NCBI GenBank assembly: GCA_023251725.1
Contig: JAHEYG010000019.1
Coordinates: 1-43,385, forward strand
Length of the DNA: 43,385 nt
Reading direction: 5' to 3'
Source: Sphingobacteriaceae bacterium
Lineage (GTDB): Bacteria; Bacteroidota; Bacteroidia; B-17B0; Aurantibacillaceae
Position numbers and translations under genes: made by a program
Notes under the pieces: generated by a model
What the model was told of the DNA's origin: nothing
Seen by the model: the letters and a program-made list of their open reading frames with translations, nothing else
Databases searched by the model: none
Part shown: piece after piece, positions 6,413-11,944 of the stretch
Layout of the letters: each line of letters opens with the position of its first letter
Numbering within the stretch: position 1 is the stretch's first letter

Positions 6413-7360
6413 CTACATTTTAACAGCGCCTTCTTTTCTTTTAAAATCTTCGTACACCATTTTAATTCCTTCTTCCAGTTCAATTTTATGTTTCCATCCT
6501 AAACTGTGGAGGAAAGTTACATCCAGTAATTTTCGCGGCGTACCATCGGGTTTTGTAAAATCGTGTTTTATTTCGCCCTTGTAACCCACAATGTTTTTTA
6601 TGAGCAATGCTAAATCTTTTATGCTTAAATCTTTTCCTGTGCCAATGTTTACATGCTTTTCTCCTTCGTAAGTATTCATCAAATGCACACAGGCATCGGC
6701 CATATCATCGGCGTGCAAAAATTCACGCAAGGGTTTCCCCGTTCCCCACAATTCAACTTCCTTTAAATTATTTTCTTTCGCGTTATCAAATTTGCTAATT
6801 AACGCCGGCAATACGTGCGAATTATTTAAATTGTAATTATCATTAGGTCCGTACAAATTAGTTGGCATCACCGAAATAAAGTTACAACCGTATTGTCTTT
6901 TATAAGATTCGCATAATTTTATTCCGGCAATTTTAGCAACGGCATAAGGTTCGTTAGTGTCTTCTAAATAACCCGATAATAAATAGTCTTCCTTTAAAGG
7001 TTGCGGCGCGAGTTTGGGATAAATACAGGAAGAACCCAAGAACATTAATTTTTTTACTTTATTCAGGTAAGAACAATGAATGATATTATTCTGAATCATT
7101 AAGTTTTCATAAATAAAATCGGCACGATAAATATTGTTGGCCTGTATGCCGCCCACTTTTGCAGCCGCTAAAAAAACGTAATCGGGTTTTTCCTTTGCAA
7201 AAAAATCACTAGCGGCCTGCTGACACCGTAAATCCAATTCAGCCGATGTTTTAATTAAAAAATTAGAGAATCCTTTTTTTTGGAGATTTCTCATAATCGC
7301 AGAACCCACCATTCCACGGTGACCGGCGATATATATTTTTGATGTTAATTCCATTATCAA
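6413..7360 (-). CDS. fcl: GDP-L-fucose synthase
   Basis: A 315-residue extended short-chain dehydrogenase that epimerises and reduces GDP-4-keto-6-deoxymannose to GDP-L-fucose with NADPH. Visible are the N-terminal nucleotide-binding loop ([12 protein letters not shown]), the [21 protein letters not shown] segment split by the catalytic Ser/Cys region, the YxxxK pair in [11 protein letters not shown], and the family stretch [15 protein letters not shown]. Length is normal for the family. An in-frame second Met at residue 3 is the alternative start. It partners with gmd at 7885-8973; the two are usually adjacent, but here a four-helix-bundle gene and its flanking repeats sit between them. Confidence 0.95.
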
Positions 7361-7376
7361 TGTGAAAATTTAAAAC

Positions 7377-7406
7377 ATTGAACATTGAACATTGATGATT
7401 GAACAT
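7377..7406. repeat. Left arm of perfect 30-bp inverted repeat flanking the four-helix-bundle gene
   Basis: Thirty bases built from four tandem heptamers (ATTGAAC, ATTGAAC, ATTGATG, ATTGAAC) plus AT. The exact reverse complement lies at 7847-7876. The arm starts 16 bases upstream of the fcl ATG and 15 bases beyond the four-helix-bundle stop, so the two arms enclose that gene closely. Confidence 0.95.
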
Positions 7407-7421
7407 TGAAAATGTATTTTT

Positions 7422-7805
7422 TCATTTCTTAATTTTATTTTCAGAGGCGGTTTTAGCGGATTTTGTGAAAATATTTACAAGCTCTCCGACTTCGTTTTTT
7501 GCTTTGTCCAACTGCCTTGCATCGGCAAGATAAGATCTCCGTTCAATAATAGTAATACAAATCTTACTTTCTTTCAGCTCTTTAAGGCAAATTTTTATTT
7601 TATGAATAAAATCATTTCTTGACTCGGCAAACTGCGCTTCACCATAATTTAAAGCAGGAGAAGTTCCGGAACGCATAAGTTGATCACCCAAATAATTACA
7701 AGAACGTTTATTTGGTAAATTATCTGTAATTTCTAAAATTAGCACTGCAAAATCAACTAATCTGTCTTCCAGTTCTTGTGCTTTTGATATTTTATTTGTA
7801 TTCAT
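7422..7805 (-). CDS. Four-helix-bundle protein (23S rRNA intervening-sequence protein family)
   Basis: A 127-residue all-helical protein. The family signature is clear: LGDQLMRSGTSPALNYGEAQ followed by AESRNDFIHKIKICLKELKE. This is the family first found as the ORF inside intervening sequences of 23S rRNA in Leptospira and Coxiella; related folds include the Avd accessory protein of diversity-generating retroelements. Biochemical role is unproven; RNA or nucleic-acid binding is the usual proposal. Here it is not in rRNA: it sits between gmd and fcl in the same direction, enclosed by perfect 30-bp inverted repeats. No reverse transcriptase or variable repeat is visible nearby, so a diversity-generating element is not supported. 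Confidence 0.9.
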   Translation of the reverse strand: MNTNKISKAQELEDRLVDFAVLILEITDNLPNKRSCNYLGDQLMRSGTSPALNYGEAQFAESRNDFIHKIKICLKELKESKICITIIERRSYLADARQLDKAKNEVGELVNIFTKSAKTASENKIKK

Positions 7806-7846
7806 TTCTTATAAAATTTATGATTTAAATCGTGAGGCAAAAAAAC

Positions 7847-7876
7847 ATGTTCAATCATCAATGTTCAATGTTCAAT
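7847..7876. repeat. Right arm of perfect 30-bp inverted repeat flanking the four-helix-bundle gene
   Basis: Exact reverse complement of 7377-7406, with the same heptamer make-up. It begins 8 bases after the gmd stop (7885) in transcription order and ends 41 bases before the four-helix-bundle ATG. In the operon transcript the two arms could pair into a 30-bp stem with the whole gene in its loop. Confidence 0.95.
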
Positions 7877-7884
7877 ATTAAAAT

Positions 7885-8973
7885 TTATTCCTTATAATTT
7901 AAAACCTTATGTCCGCCTTCCATTAAATATTTATCGCGTTTAAACAATTCAACATCGCTCGCCACCATTTCTTTACACAATTGCTCCACACTGCGTTTAG
8001 CTACCCAGCCTAATTCTTTTTTGGCTTTCGATGCATCACCCAATAACAAATCTACTTCGGCGGGCCTAAAATATTTCGCATCAATCTCCACAATAATTTT
8101 TCCGGTAGTTTTATTATATCCTTTTTCGTCAATGCCTTTTCCTTTCCACTCTACCACAATTCCTACTTCGGCAAAAGCCAATTCAATAAATTTTCTTACT
8201 GATATTTTTTTTCCGGTAGCCAAAACAAAATCATCGGCCACTTTATGCTGCATCATTAACCACATGCCCTCTACATAATCTTGTGCATGTCCCCAATCAC
8301 GTTCCGAATCAATATTTCCCATAAATAATTTTTCTTGCATGCCTAAACTTATTTTAGCAACAGCACGCGTGATTTTTCTCGTCACAAATGTTTCTCCTCT
8401 AACCGGACTCTCATGATTAAATAAAATTCCATTACAAGCAAAAATACCGTAAGCCTCTCTGTAATTTTTGGTAATCCAAAAAGCATAAAGTTTTGCAACT
8501 CCATACGGACTCCGCGGATGAAAAGGTGTTGTTTCTTTTTGCGGAACTTCCTGAGCCAATCCATAAAGTTCGGAAGTAGATGCCTGATAAAAACGTGTTT
8601 TCTTTTCTAAACCTAAAATGCGAATAGCTTCTAAAATTCGCAAAGTTCCAACAGCATCAGAGTTGGCTGTGTATTCGGGAGTTTCAAAACTCACTTTAAC
8701 ATGCGACTGCGCCGCGAGATTATAAATTTCATCGGGCTGCACTTCCTGCACAATGCGAATTAAATTTGTACTATCGGTTAAATCGCCGTAGTGCAATTTA
8801 AAATGCACATTTTTTTCGTGCTGGTCCTGATATAAATGATCAATTCTATCGGTATTAAACATCGAGCTGCGGCGTTTTACACCGTGCACTTCATAGCCTT
8901 TCTCCAATAAAAATTCTGCTAAATATGAACCGTCTTGTCCGGTTACCCCTGTAATTAAAGCCACTTTTGCCAT
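7885..8973 (-). CDS. gmd: GDP-mannose 4,6-dehydratase
   Basis: A 362-residue enzyme that converts GDP-D-mannose to GDP-4-keto-6-deoxy-D-mannose, the first step to GDP-L-fucose. The NAD(P)-binding start ([20 protein letters not shown]), the STSELYG segment with catalytic Thr/Glu, and the YxxxK pair in [12 protein letters not shown] are present, followed by [20 protein letters not shown] typical of Gmd. Length matches the family. It opens the polysaccharide operon and is the first gene after a probable promoter at about 8999-9006. The product feeds Fcl at 6413-7360. Confidence 0.97.
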
Positions 8974-9361: not shown

Positions 9362-10156
9362 ATGTCATTTCTCGAAGCATTTTTTATTGCCCTGGTGGAA
9401 GGCATCACCGAATTTTTGCCGGTGTCGTCAACCGGGCACATGATGATTGTTACTGCATTAATGGGAATGAAAGTTACACCCTTTGTAAAATTATTTACCA
9501 TTTGCATTCAGTTGGGCGCCATTTTATCGGTGGTAGTAATTTATTTTAAACGATTTTTTAAGAGCGTAAATTTTTATTTGAAATTAATTGTGGCTTTTAT
9601 TCCTGCCGCGGTGGCGGGACTGTTATTAGGAGATTATATTGATGCGGCCTTAGAAAATGTTTTTGGAGTAGCGGTTGCCTTATTTTTGGGAGGAATTATT
9701 TTATTGTTTGTAGATAAATGGTTTCAGCAAAATAATTTAGATGAAGAAAAAGATATTTCTTATGGGAAAGCATTTAAGATAGGATTGTTTCAGTGTATTG
9801 CATTGTTTCCGGGTATTAGTAGGAGCGGTGCCACTATTGTGGGAGGAATGACACAAAAACTTACCAGAAAAAATGCAGCGGAGTTTTCTTTTTTCTTAGC
9901 GGTACCCACGATGTTTGCAGCAACAGCAAAAAAATTATTAGATTTTTATAAAGACGGTTTACAATTAGATTCGCACGAAGTTTCATTGTTAATTTTTGGA
10001 AATGTGGTGGCGTTTGTTGTGGCCATGCTTGCAATAAAATTTTTCATAAGTATGCTAAACAAAAGCGGATTTACAATTTTTGGATGGTACCGGATTGTTG
10101 TTGGAGCAATATTAATTATTTTATTCTTGCTTCACGTTCCGTTGAGCGTGGTGTAA
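9362..10156 (+). CDS. uppP: Undecaprenyl-diphosphatase UppP/BacA
   Basis: A 264-residue multi-pass membrane enzyme that removes one phosphate from undecaprenyl diphosphate and so recycles the lipid carrier for peptidoglycan and surface glycans. Both signature motifs are present: [15 protein letters not shown] near the N terminus and [14 protein letters not shown] in the middle. Length is typical. It lies in the DUF3098-uppP-truB arrangement, but a GxxExxY gene with flanking repeats now separates it from truB. It ends (VPLSVV) just before the left arm of that repeat. Confidence 0.96.
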
Positions 10157-10162
10157 AAAGAG

Positions 10163-10206
10163 TAACCGCAAAGACGCAAAGAGAAGGCGCAAAGTTCGCA
10201 GAGAAA
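10163..10206. repeat. Left imperfect inverted repeat of the GxxExxY cassette
   Basis: About 44 bases starting TAACCGC and built from CGCAAAG/CGCAGAG-type units, running directly into the GxxExxY ATG. The reverse complement of 10585-10627 also starts TAACCGC and carries the same kind of units (GCGCAGAG, CGCAAAG); aligned by eye with a few gaps, identity is roughly three quarters. Confidence 0.75.
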
Positions 10207-10584
10207 ATGGAAGAGAACGAGATTTCAAATATTATTATTGGTTGTGCAATAAAAGTTCATTCTGCATTGGGACCTGGATTATTGGAATCTGCTTATGAAG
10301 AATGTTTGAATTATGAATTGAGAAAAGCAGGATTAAAAGTTGAAAAACAAAAACCACTTCCTCCTGTTTATGAAGAAGTAAAATTAGAAGTTGGTTATCG
10401 ATTAGATTTGTTAGTAGAAAATAAAGTAATAATTGAAATAAAAGCGGTTGAAGCTTTAAATGACGTTCATATGGCACAAATTTTAACCTATTTAAAACTC
10501 AATAAAAATAAATTGGGCTTGCTAATTAATTTTAATGTTTCTTTACTAAAGAATGGAGTTCGAAGAGTCGTAAATAACTTATAA
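10207..10584 (+). CDS. GxxExxY protein (PD-(D/E)XK nuclease-like)
   Basis: A 125-residue protein carrying the family motif GLLESAY (GPGLLESAYEECL) and a nuclease-like core, RLDLLVENKVIIEIKAVE, with the Asp, Glu and Lys pattern of PD-(D/E)XK enzymes. Function is unknown; the family is often multi-copy in Bacteroidota. The frame is open upstream to 10084, but that part overlaps uppP and translates the repeat, so I chose the ATG at 10207. It is co-directional with uppP and truB and is enclosed by imperfect inverted repeats of CGCAAAG-like units. Both the repeats and the interruption of a standard gene pair point to an inserted cassette. Confidence 0.9.
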   Translation: MEENEISNIIIGCAIKVHSALGPGLLESAYEECLNYELRKAGLKVEKQKPLPPVYEEVKLEVGYRLDLLVENKVIIEIKAVEALNDVHMAQILTYLKLNKNKLGLLINFNVSLLKNGVRRVVNNL

Positions 10585-10627
10585 AGTCTTTGCGTCCTCT
10601 GCGCAACCGTAGCGCCCTTAGCGGTTA
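10585..10627. repeat. Right imperfect inverted repeat of the GxxExxY cassette
   Basis: It starts on the base after the GxxExxY stop and ends 6 bases before the truB ATG. Read in reverse complement it opens TAACCGC and contains GCGCAGAG and CGCAAAG, matching the left arm with scattered differences. Confidence 0.75.
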
Positions 10628-10633
10628 AAAAAA

Positions 10634-11335
10634 ATGTACAACTTCTATAAAGGAGAAATAATTTTAATCAATAAGCCATTAACCTGGACATCCTTTCAGG
10701 CAGTAAACAAAATAAAACACGGTTTAAAAAAGCATCCTTCATTATTTCACGATAATAAATTTGTGCATTTAAAAATCGGTCACGCCGGAACATTAGATCC
10801 TTTGGCAACAGGATTATTAATTGTGTGCAGTGGAAAAAAAACAAAAGAAATTCATTTGTATCAAGATTTGAAAAAAGAATATACCGGCTCATTTTTTTTA
10901 GGCGCCACAACTCCTTGCTTCGATTTAGAAAAACCAATTGATGCCACTTATCCCACCGAACACATTAGCGAACAAAACATTTTAGATACAGCAAAAACAT
11001 TTTTAGGAAAGCAAATGCAAACCCCGCCTATTTTTAGCGCTATAAGAGTAAACGGCGAACGCGCTTACGAATTAGCCCGCAAAGGCGAAACGGCCGAATT
11101 AAAAGCACGCCCGATAGAAATTTTAGAATTTGAAATTACCAATATAAAAATGCCCGAAATAAATTTTAAAATTGTTTGCACCAAAGGAACTTACATAAGA
11201 AGCATCGCTCGCGATTTTGGAATGGCATTAAAAAGCGGCGCGCACTTAACCGCATTATGCCGCACAAAAATCGGCGACTTCGATGTAAAAAATGCTTTAA
11301 GTCCCGAAGAGTTTTTGAAGAGAGTGGTTATTTGA
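10634..11335 (+). CDS. truB: tRNA pseudouridine(55) synthase TruB
   Basis: A 233-residue enzyme that makes pseudouridine 55 in the T-loop of tRNAs. The start INKPLTWTSFQAVNKIK and the catalytic motif HAGTLDPLATG with Asp55 are clear, as is GTYIRSIARDFG in the second half. There is no C-terminal PUA domain, consistent with the short bacterial form. The last 16 codons (KNALSPEEFLKRVVI and stop, 11288-11335) recur in diverged form at 11878-11925, on the far side of a toxin-antitoxin pair. So the present 3' end may be one of two alternative ends brought in by insertion. Confidence 0.96.
   Translation: MYNFYKGEIILINKPLTWTSFQAVNKIKHGLKKHPSLFHDNKFVHLKIGHAGTLDPLATGLLIVCSGKKTKEIHLYQDLKKEYTGSFFLGATTPCFDLEKPIDATYPTEHISEQNILDTAKTFLGKQMQTPPIFSAIRVNGERAYELARKGETAELKARPIEILEFEITNIKMPEINFKIVCTKGTYIRSIARDFGMALKSGAHLTALCRTKIGDFDVKNALSPEEFLKRVVI
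11288..11335. repeat. Direct repeat, copy A: the 3' end of truB
   Basis: The last 48 bases of truB. They match 11878-11925 at 40 of 48 positions with no gaps; the offset is exactly 590 bases. The two copies enclose the toxin-antitoxin pair. Confidence 0.85.
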
Positions 11336-11340
11336 AAAAA

Positions 11341-11598
11341 TTAATAATGATATCTACAGGCAAAAATAATTATAGAGTTTTTGCTTATTTTATAAATTAA
11401 CCTGTGCTCTTTGTTAACACGACGGCTCCAATATCCTTTAAATTCGTGTTTTAGTGGCTCTGGTTTTCCTAATCCAACAAATGGGTTAACTTGAATATCA
11501 TCAATAAGTATTTCTATACGTTTGTATATTTTCTTATTAATTTTTTTCCATTTTTCAAGCTGAGCGAGCGCTATTGGTGTGAATAACACTTCCATCAT
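11341..11598 (-). CDS. YoeB/Txe-type mRNA interferase toxin
   Basis: An 85-residue protein of the RelE/ParE superfamily, closest by eye to YoeB: KPEPLKHEFKGYWSRRVNKEHRLIYKI is the family stretch (PLKHEF and YWSRR..EHRL), ending in CRYHY with the terminal His-Tyr pair used in catalysis. Such toxins cleave mRNA at the ribosome. Its ATG overlaps the antitoxin stop region by 4 bases. It is convergent with truB, ending only 5 bases past the truB stop. Confidence 0.9.
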   Translation of the reverse strand: MMEVLFTPIALAQLEKWKKINKKIYKRIEILIDDIQVNPFVGLGKPEPLKHEFKGYWSRRVNKEHRLIYKISKNSIIIFACRYHY

Positions 11599-11825
11599 TT
11601 CTTGCTCGCCTTTCCGATATTTACTTTGGTGAGTTTGCCCTTTTCTGCTTGTAAAATAGATTCGCGCAACATTTTTACATTGGCAGGATTAGATAAAAGA
11701 TACTCTGTTTCGTCGATATCTTCTTCAACAGTAATTGAAATATTTTTATTTTTAAATAGTAATTTAAGTTTCTTTAAAAAACTCTCATTTAATTCAACAG
11801 CTTTAATATGAAATGTTGTGTACAT
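11595..11825 (-). CDS. Antitoxin partner of the YoeB-type toxin
   Basis: A 76-residue protein directly upstream of and overlapping the toxin by 4 bases. The C-terminal part (LLSNPANVKMLRESILQAEKGKLTKV) resembles the toxin-wrapping tail of Phd/YefM-like antitoxins, while the N-terminal part (FHIKAVELNESFLKKLKLLF, then ITVEED) is not a family I recognise with certainty. The frame extends upstream to 11852, adding MVYLCKKEN; I chose the second Met at 11825 because it gives the compact start usual for this kind of gene. Antitoxins normally bind their own promoter; no operator could be picked out here. Confidence 0.8.
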   Translation of the reverse strand: MYTTFHIKAVELNESFLKKLKLLFKNKNISITVEEDIDETEYLLSNPANVKMLRESILQAEKGKLTKVNIGKASKK

Positions 11826-11877
11826 GTTTTCTTTTTTACAAAGATAAACCAAAAATTAATACGATGAAACTGTCTCA

Positions 11878-11925
11878 AAAAATATTTTGACTCTCGAAGA
11901 GTTTTTGAAAACTGTGGTTATTTGA
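11878..11925 (+). pseudogene. Displaced second copy of the truB 3' end (direct repeat, copy B)
   Basis: Read in frame it gives KNILTLEEFLKTVVI and a TGA stop, against KNALSPEEFLKRVVI and TGA at the real truB end. Forty of 48 bases agree, and of the eight differences several are silent or conservative. Codons upstream (YDETVS from 11860) may continue the likeness weakly. It has no start and is only a fragment. It looks like the 3' end of a different truB allele, either the original end pushed away by the insertion or an end carried in with it. Confidence 0.75.
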
Positions 11926-11944
11926 AGGTATTTCGAGTATTTTT

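Follow-up and report, generated by a model that had tools for sequence, protein, structure and literature searches.

Why is a gene for a small four-helix-bundle protein, enclosed by inverted repeats, inserted between gmd and fcl? This arrangement is found in a window of 43,385 nucleotides, which is the whole stretch of DNA analysed here and derives from contig JAHEYG010000019.1 of a Sphingobacteriaceae bacterium. The features of the locus are listed in Table 1. An earlier note on this DNA had reported exact inverted arms at 7377-7406 and 7847-7876. These segments are indeed exact 30-nt reverse complements and form the sole perfect 30-mer inverted pair in the window; when mismatches were allowed, the pair grew to 40 nt at 90%. 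As the note had also claimed, the arms enclose the four-helix-bundle gene alone: the one gene between them matched PF05635 (E 1.3e-13) and TIGR02436, "four helix bundle protein" (E 8.4e-23), and no transposase is encoded there. The AlphaFold2 model of the protein (IVP or S23p; pLDDT 92.6) has four helices, and the nearest solved folds are the S23p structures 2RLD and 2GSC. To our knowledge, no function of the PF05635 "four helix bundle protein" has been established. The best match of fcl is GDP-L-fucose synthase (498.8 bits, just below the 500-bit cut-off). One distance in the note is refined here, and one statement required correction. The 30-nt arm begins 8 nt after the gmd stop, as described. 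However, the 16 nt given for the distance between the other arm and the fcl start applies only to the TTG codon, and the distance to the likelier ATG is 22 nt. Similarly, the arms are built of heptads but not of ATTGAAC alone: read inward, each arm consists of five ordered units. The cassette spans about 510 bp in total. When its own assembly, which is 75% complete, was searched at the DNA level (E <= 0.001), the 30-bp arm was found at the gmd-fcl cassette only. The feature is a cassette in which two inverted end arrays bracket an IVP gene, and it lies in the gap from the gmd stop codon to the fcl start codon.

Table 1. Positions of the cassette components and neighbouring genes in the window
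Feature	Position	Strand	Description
5' arm (gene sense)	7846..7880	-	inward heptads TAATATT GAACATT GAACATT GATGATT GAACATG
3' arm	7373..7411	+	inward heptads AAACATT GAACATT GAACATT GATGATT GAACATT + GAAA
IVP / S23p four-helix-bundle gene, 127 aa	7422..7805	-	PF05635 / TIGR02436
Upstream gene gmd (GDP-mannose 4,6-dehydratase)	7885..8973	-	TIGR01472
Downstream gene fcl (GDP-L-fucose synthase)	6413..7360	-	TTG at 7360, likelier ATG at 7354

Does the cassette stand alone? We searched 60 genomes, including that of the window, and found PF05635 in 52 of them; 45, again with its own genome among them, possess 2 to 12 PF05635 genes each. Its own genome contains six, and the other five genes also have inverted end repeats, each with a unit of its own, although the repeat at one locus (L010) is doubtful. 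We then scored 79 PF05635 loci (6 own, 73 from relatives) by the best gapless inverted match between the two flanks, a measure that misses arms with indels. It should be mentioned that these loci are not a random sample: they comprise the 6 own loci, the best locus from each of 29 genomes and 44 loci picked by hand among the matches listed, mostly from the top of the match list and away from contig ends. A score of at least 11 was obtained at 62 of the 79 loci, as compared with 4/237 shuffled flanks, 26/395 crossed-arm pairs and 7/81 control ORFs of similar size from a relative (G007). A score of at least 16 was reached at 23/79 loci and in none of the controls (0/237, 0/395 and 0/81, respectively). 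Thus, the idea that the cassette is a unique oddity of the window can be dismissed. Among the 62 armed loci, the best period was 7 in 45, 8 in 11, 9 in 3 and another value in 3.

Two further sets gave the same picture. In the first set, genomes were scanned with the window protein and two orthologs; 80 loci were kept of 373, and 2 of these were dropped because of short flanks. Arms were found at 70 of the remaining 78 loci, with period 7 in 67 of the 70. The record titles of these relatives name Bacteroidota, Ignavibacteria, KSB1, Armatimonadota, Verrucomicrobia and Planctomycetes, and the set includes the gmd-fcl cassettes of genomes G011 and G012 (L160 and L161). The second set consists of 29 of 30 loci (44 matches listed) from five further genomes, all represented among these relatives, with titles naming Planctomycetes, Verrucomicrobia, KSB1 and Armatimonadota; one locus below the family cut-off was dropped, and two (L300 and L301) repeat loci of the preceding set (L227 and L166). 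In this set, 24/29 loci are armed, with period 7 in 18, period 8 in 5 and period 12 in 1. Scores below 11 were observed at 17/79, 8/78 and 5/29 loci in the three sets. The genomes are mostly draft assemblies, and the phylum names come from the titles of records that are mostly MAGs, in which binning errors are possible. These counts demonstrate that the PF05635 cassette with inverted arms is a common kind of element. The window element, with its inverted period-7 arms of about five units around a PF05635 gene, belongs to this widespread class, which occupies operon junctions. By comparison, 400 kb of G007 without an IVP gene (hmmsearch E <= 0.1) contained 41 inverted repeats scoring at least 14, none of them with clear two-sided period-7 arms; about half of the IVP arms would themselves fall short of this threshold. 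Heptad hairpins lacking a gene were considered as a common element in their own right and rejected, since no clear one was present in these 400 kb.

We also recorded where the cassettes lie. When flanking genes were called as the longest open frames, 115 of the 143 loci with readable flanks lay between co-directional genes, and the upstream gene was co-directional in 136 of 143. The upstream stop and the arm are separated by a median of 10 nt (120 loci), and the opposite arm and the start codon that follows by a median of 14 nt (107 loci). Several junctions recur in the set of 79 loci: fadB-fadA (8), miaB-sigma-54 regulator (7), sufB-sufC (6), sdhA-sdhB (5) and hisB-hisH (2), where the gene names are our reading of the flank translations. 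The fadB-fadA junction harbours several IVP clades.

The known element closest to this arrangement is the intervening sequence (IVS) of 23S rRNA, and the earlier note had recognised an IVS-like architecture inside a protein-coding operon. We confirmed this view. As in helix 45 of Coxiella burnetii 23S rRNA, the ends are complementary and an S23p/PF05635 gene lies in the loop. The Coxiella IVS is 428-444 nt, similar in size to the window cassette, and its 5' side is described as carrying heptameric direct repeats, two or three copies of GACAGAT depending on the strain followed by GACAGAA (PMC4990558). There are clear differences, however. The window cassette belongs to an mRNA operon, where it separates a stop codon from a start codon and does not interrupt an rRNA helix; the arms of its class have about five units each with clade-specific cores; and the IVP of its relatives is under purifying selection, whereas the Coxiella ORF is described as decaying (PMC4990558). 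Thus, the architecture is IVS-like, but the cassette does not lie in rRNA as an IVS does. A 23S location of the other members was also rejected: there was no Rfam match in the 20 of the 29 loci from the five further genomes that were scanned.

To see which part of the arm is conserved, we compared the two arms of each locus. Among relatives of the window protein, each unit consists of a core (mostly GATT, GAAT or GAAC) and a 3-nt spacer, and 582 units carry 45 different spacers. At 53 loci, the arms differed from each other at 12/665 (1.8%) of core positions 1-3, 16/211 of fourth core bases and 121/583 (21%) of spacer positions. Because the heptad phase was set by maximising GA, core positions 1-2 are favoured by the procedure; position 3, which was not used, alone still gave 4/220. 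Therefore, cores are kept about ten times better than spacers between arms. Because the spacers nevertheless agree between arms at about 79% of positions, pairing or recent copying also acts on the arms. Copying has left a trace at locus L204, where one insert of about 50 nt breaks the heptad row in both arms (1548 (+) and 2276 (-)); one arm can therefore be copied to the other.

The number of units was also informative. We aligned 58 arms from 41 loci (29 5' arms and 29 3' arms) on an inner GAAG. The two kinds of arm have one common pattern, in which the core is visible in heptads -5 to -1 and heptads -6 to -8 carry at most 0.5 bit everywhere. For an arm to be included, three of the four heptads from -4 to -1 had to contain GA; heptads -5 and -6 played no part in this choice. 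In other clades with unrelated cores, where units were counted by simple rules, five was again the commonest number (31/92 arms; four in 23, six in 5; range 1-13). Five is the mode and not a law, given that 61/92 arms differ from it. The inward-reading strand has more G than C at 57/62 loci. These properties bear on the idea that the arms are neutral satellite DNA without a role, generated by slippage and arm-to-arm conversion. The long runs of 12-13 units in some arms and the insert copied to both arms of L204 are what such a process would leave. However, the five-unit mode with its terminal GAAG, the contrast between core and spacer, and the occurrence of one core in relatives from several phyla all argue against it, and we regard this explanation as highly improbable.

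If the cores are conserved, with what do they vary? Neighbours in the protein tree often have common cores, even at different junctions. Across 134 loci (8755 pairs without related flanks), protein identity correlated with the 4-mer similarity of the arms (r 0.496), whereas the maximum of 2000 permutations was 0.143. The correlation was weaker in the set of 79 loci alone (r 0.186, permutation maximum 0.137, 1920 pairs). We also considered that the arms might pre-exist at the site. This was ruled out by 31 pairs with related flanks and a protein identity below 40%, in which the arm similarity was at background (0.15-0.17). Thus, it is the protein clade, and not the insertion site, that the arm core follows. 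Because core and protein correlate across unrelated flanks, the arms and the gene are inherited as one unit. The simplest further step would be that the core is read by the IVP protein; joint movement of arms and gene would by itself give the correlation, so that the correlation does not prove recognition.

These results allow an evaluation of the RNA stem, to which the earlier note had assigned the selected function. According to this explanation, the arms are selected to form a stem that is cut by RNase III in the gmd-IVP-fcl mRNA, and the cut releases the cassette message and parts its neighbours. The arms do pair: when 530 nt were folded as RNA, they formed a stem with a z value of -4.77 against 100 shuffles. 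The preference for sites between co-directional genes and the agreement of spacers between arms are also consistent with a stem. However, under selection for the stem, G-U mismatches between arms should exceed A-C mismatches, and no such excess was observed: G-U and A-C numbered 37 and 43 in one comparison, and 43 and 32 in another (p 0.25). On this test the candidate of an RNA stem under selection was rejected. Moreover, at 21 loci the cassette is followed by a gene of opposite orientation, and 20 of these loci retain their arms. The roughly tenfold better conservation of cores also speaks against selection for a stem, and a stem has no need of cores that follow the protein clade. Thus, the stem did not hold up as the selected function, and we consider this explanation unlikely.

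We next compared whole cassettes. When every pair among 157 loci was considered, 11 had a likeness confined to the cassette, with an identity of 80% or more over 300 nt or more. One of them (L219/L229) represents the same site; in the other ten, the identity is 80-87% and the flanking genes are unrelated. The best pair, L185/L204, is 87.0% identical over 462 nt. In the four pairs whose alignments were inspected, the similarity begins and stops at or close to the outer heptads; L198/L222 is the clearest case. Because ten pairs with 80-87% likeness have unrelated flanks, the cassette, delimited by its inverted ends, moves as one unit; this statement applies to the relatives and not to the window copy itself. 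Movement is not frequent, since no two cassettes at unrelated sites exceed 87% likeness and orthologs of the window cassette (L160 and L161) have persisted at a single site over a saturated synonymous distance. Among individual cases, L227 and L236 are 81% identical over 452 nt at unrelated sites in Planctomycete genomes (Brocadiaceae and Scalindua by title).

The gain and loss of cassettes can be followed at single junctions. A gmd match was present in 51 genomes, and the gmd-fcl locus could be compared in 30 of these. As the earlier note had assumed, the two genes are normally adjacent: they are at most 97 nt apart in 24 of the 30 genomes. The empty sites that it had suggested seeking in relatives therefore exist, and only three genomes carry the gene (G000, which is the window's own genome, G011 and G012), with arms that differ in their letters. 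The remaining loci are one with a 477-nt spacer without an IVP match and two without fcl within 1.5 kb. Among seven relatives of the same genus, six lack the gene and have gmd beside fcl; in the seventh (G005), neither fcl nor an IVP gene was matched at this place. At the pdhA-aceF junction, G007 has 436 nt with a cassette and G005 has 14 nt without one, and the flanks of the two genomes are 98.4% and 99.6% identical. Of the other five relatives, four have 3, 3, 27 and 29 nt at this junction and G001 has 460 nt with a cassette. No target-site duplication was visible in the comparison of G007 and G005 at pdhA-aceF, the one recent junction inspected. At the ychF junction, the cassette is present in G007, G005 and G001 and absent from G002, G004 and G006, and G003 gave no match.

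Some cases concern neighbouring junctions. In G006 (G006:C27:113406-115798; L245, L248 and L252), which has no cassette at the ychF junction, a 69% identical cassette relative lies one junction further downstream than in G007 (L045), as if cassettes hop to a neighbouring junction. A similar picture was seen in the fad operon for L011 as compared with L014, L017 and L055. Among the 24 short gmd-fcl spacers, nine are at least 40 nt long, and three of these (L087, L093 and L102; scores 9, 12 and 10) look by eye like hairpins built of repeats, whereas a fourth (L101, score 11) looks like a terminator. The three gene-less hairpins may be what is left of lost cassettes. L102 contains the palindrome CCGATAGCTATCGG, which is also present elsewhere in a relative (G007:C1:973635) and may represent a separate repeat family.

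The earlier note had offered a second explanation, in which the arms are ends recognised in trans by an unrelated transposase; the cassette would then be a non-autonomous transposon with the IVP gene as cargo. The part of this proposal that treats the arms as ends of a moving unit agrees with our results. The terminal inverted arms, the similar cassettes at unrelated sites, the patchy presence with empty sites, and the repeat-like hairpins without a gene in 3 of the 24 short gmd-fcl spacers would all be expected of a transposon. The foreign transposase, in contrast, is not supported. The cores vary by clade and track the cassette's own IVP protein, and one transposase would give one end sequence per genome, whereas several units exist in the window's own genome. 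The one recent site without target duplication is a further point against it. We therefore judge this explanation quite improbable.

The protein itself was then analysed. In five ortholog pairs with dS of 0.44-1.84, dN/dS was 0.02-0.06. One pair (L034/L059) gave 0.32, and three near-identical pairs (0.12-0.81) were uninformative. For the window protein and its orthologs L160 and L161, synonymous sites were saturated and pN was 0.12 and 0.21. Because of the low dN/dS in the five pairs, we conclude that the IVP protein has been kept functional in the relatives by purifying selection. S23p is described as a homopentamer (PMC4990558), in agreement with the five chains of 2RLD and chains A-E of 2GSC. 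A reverse transcriptase as a necessary partner was ruled out: 39 of the 60 genomes searched lack an RVT_1 match, among them its own genome (G000, 75% complete), G001 with 10 IVP genes and G050 with 7.

A conserved protein could be an autoregulated host gene, in which IVP binds the repeats of its own 5' leader and controls translation of its own gene or of the operon, and movement is past or incidental. Purifying selection and the long persistence at one junction are in line with this idea, as is the 5' arm, which reaches the IVP start codon at some loci (for example, L042 and L068). However, the ordered cores and the inner GAAG recur in the 3' arm just as in the 5' arm (29 arms of each kind), and a leader site would have no need of them there. 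Furthermore, close genomes differ in the presence of the cassette, and similar cassettes lie at unrelated sites. Autoregulation thus seems rather improbable to us.

Which explanation, then, accounts for the arms best? We propose that the end arrays are bound by the cassette's own IVP protein and mark the cassette for copying, and we consider this probably correct. About five cores, a spacing of 7 nt and free spacers suit a ring with five sites; because of this, we propose that the IVP pentamer ring would bind the end array with one subunit per heptad. In B-DNA, a step of seven base pairs corresponds to a rotation of about 240 degrees, and cores spaced in this way would not share one face of a straight duplex. 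Because of this misfit and the strong bias of the inward strand to G over C, the array is most likely single-stranded when bound, either as RNA or as displaced DNA, and the G-rich strand would be the one recognised. A single strand wrapped round the ring would present a core to each subunit. Recognition of both ends would mark the cassette as the unit for copying, and copying from arm to arm would keep the ends alike. The moving enzyme would be encoded outside the cassette. On this view, the pairing of the arms in the mRNA, perhaps followed by RNase III cutting like that of the 23S IVS, would be a by-product through which the insertion is tolerated.

A wider reading is attractive, but we offer it tentatively. 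IVP rings may be modular readers of repeat rows, with one subunit per heptad and an evolving core specificity, and five-heptad ends together with the gene may constitute a large class of mobile elements at operon junctions in several bacterial phyla. It is possible, with the same reserve, that the 23S IVS is a special case that landed in rRNA and that a ring on single-stranded ends enables copying between junctions. A row of cores and spacers that matches both a protein clade and a pentamer provides a concrete candidate binding site, and the class ties rRNA intervening sequences to a larger group in mRNA operons. If the binding is true, it would be a new mode of repeat recognition. The TRAP ring, which has 11 subunits and a tryptophan switch, reads (G/U)AG repeats at fixed spacing, one per subunit. 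IVP would be analogous in reading a row of repeats and has no homology to TRAP.

Other systems resemble parts of the cassette. PF05635 is described as resembling Avd of diversity-generating retroelements (DGR) (PMC10053308). Consistent with this, the modelled fold of the window IVP matched the four-helix Avd chains of 4DWL and 8UB7, more weakly than the S23p structures (weak E values of 0.09-0.1, but TM about 0.7). Unlike the Avd systems, its own assembly (75% complete) contains no reverse transcriptase match. Heptads are also known from elsewhere. The P6b stem of the Nostoc trnL intron is reported to contain degenerate heptads with fixed and N positions (TDNGATT and NNTGAGT; PMC4476775), and in Xanthomonas inverted GGGAATC heptamer pairs number 70 and 75 per genome (PMC4692102). 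As far as the cited parts of these papers go, the Nostoc and Xanthomonas heptads have no link to an S23p gene, and they represent one or two unit types as compared with one per protein clade in the present class. TAACTGA direct repeats (PMC4679880) and heptanucleotide elements of Geobacter (PMC2700814) have been described as well. In searches of open-licence PMC articles, no title or abstract described arms of this kind flanking PF05635 genes of mRNA operons. The heptamers of the Coxiella 23S IVS are thus already known, and the generalisation was not found in these searches.

Inverted oligomer arms also surround genes of an unrelated protein, GxxExxY (PF13366). In a set of 28 of 30 loci, from which 2 with internal stops had been dropped, 19 scored at least 11. 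Their units differ from those of the PF05635 cassettes, being CACAGAG/CGCAGAT-like at many loci, and the period is 8-10 in 18 of the 19. The window contains one such cassette as its second: at 10147-10625, a GxxExxY gene with inverted arms of the CGCAAAG/CTTTGCG type (score 10) lies between uppP/bacA-like and truB-like genes, named by our reading. A module on the - strand, made up of a YoeB-like toxin gene and a small partner gene (11341-11852), is enclosed by two direct copies of a 50-bp repeat (84%; 11287-11336 and 11877-11926). The truB-like gene has its 3' end in the left copy, which looks as though the module had inserted at the end of this gene and duplicated that end.
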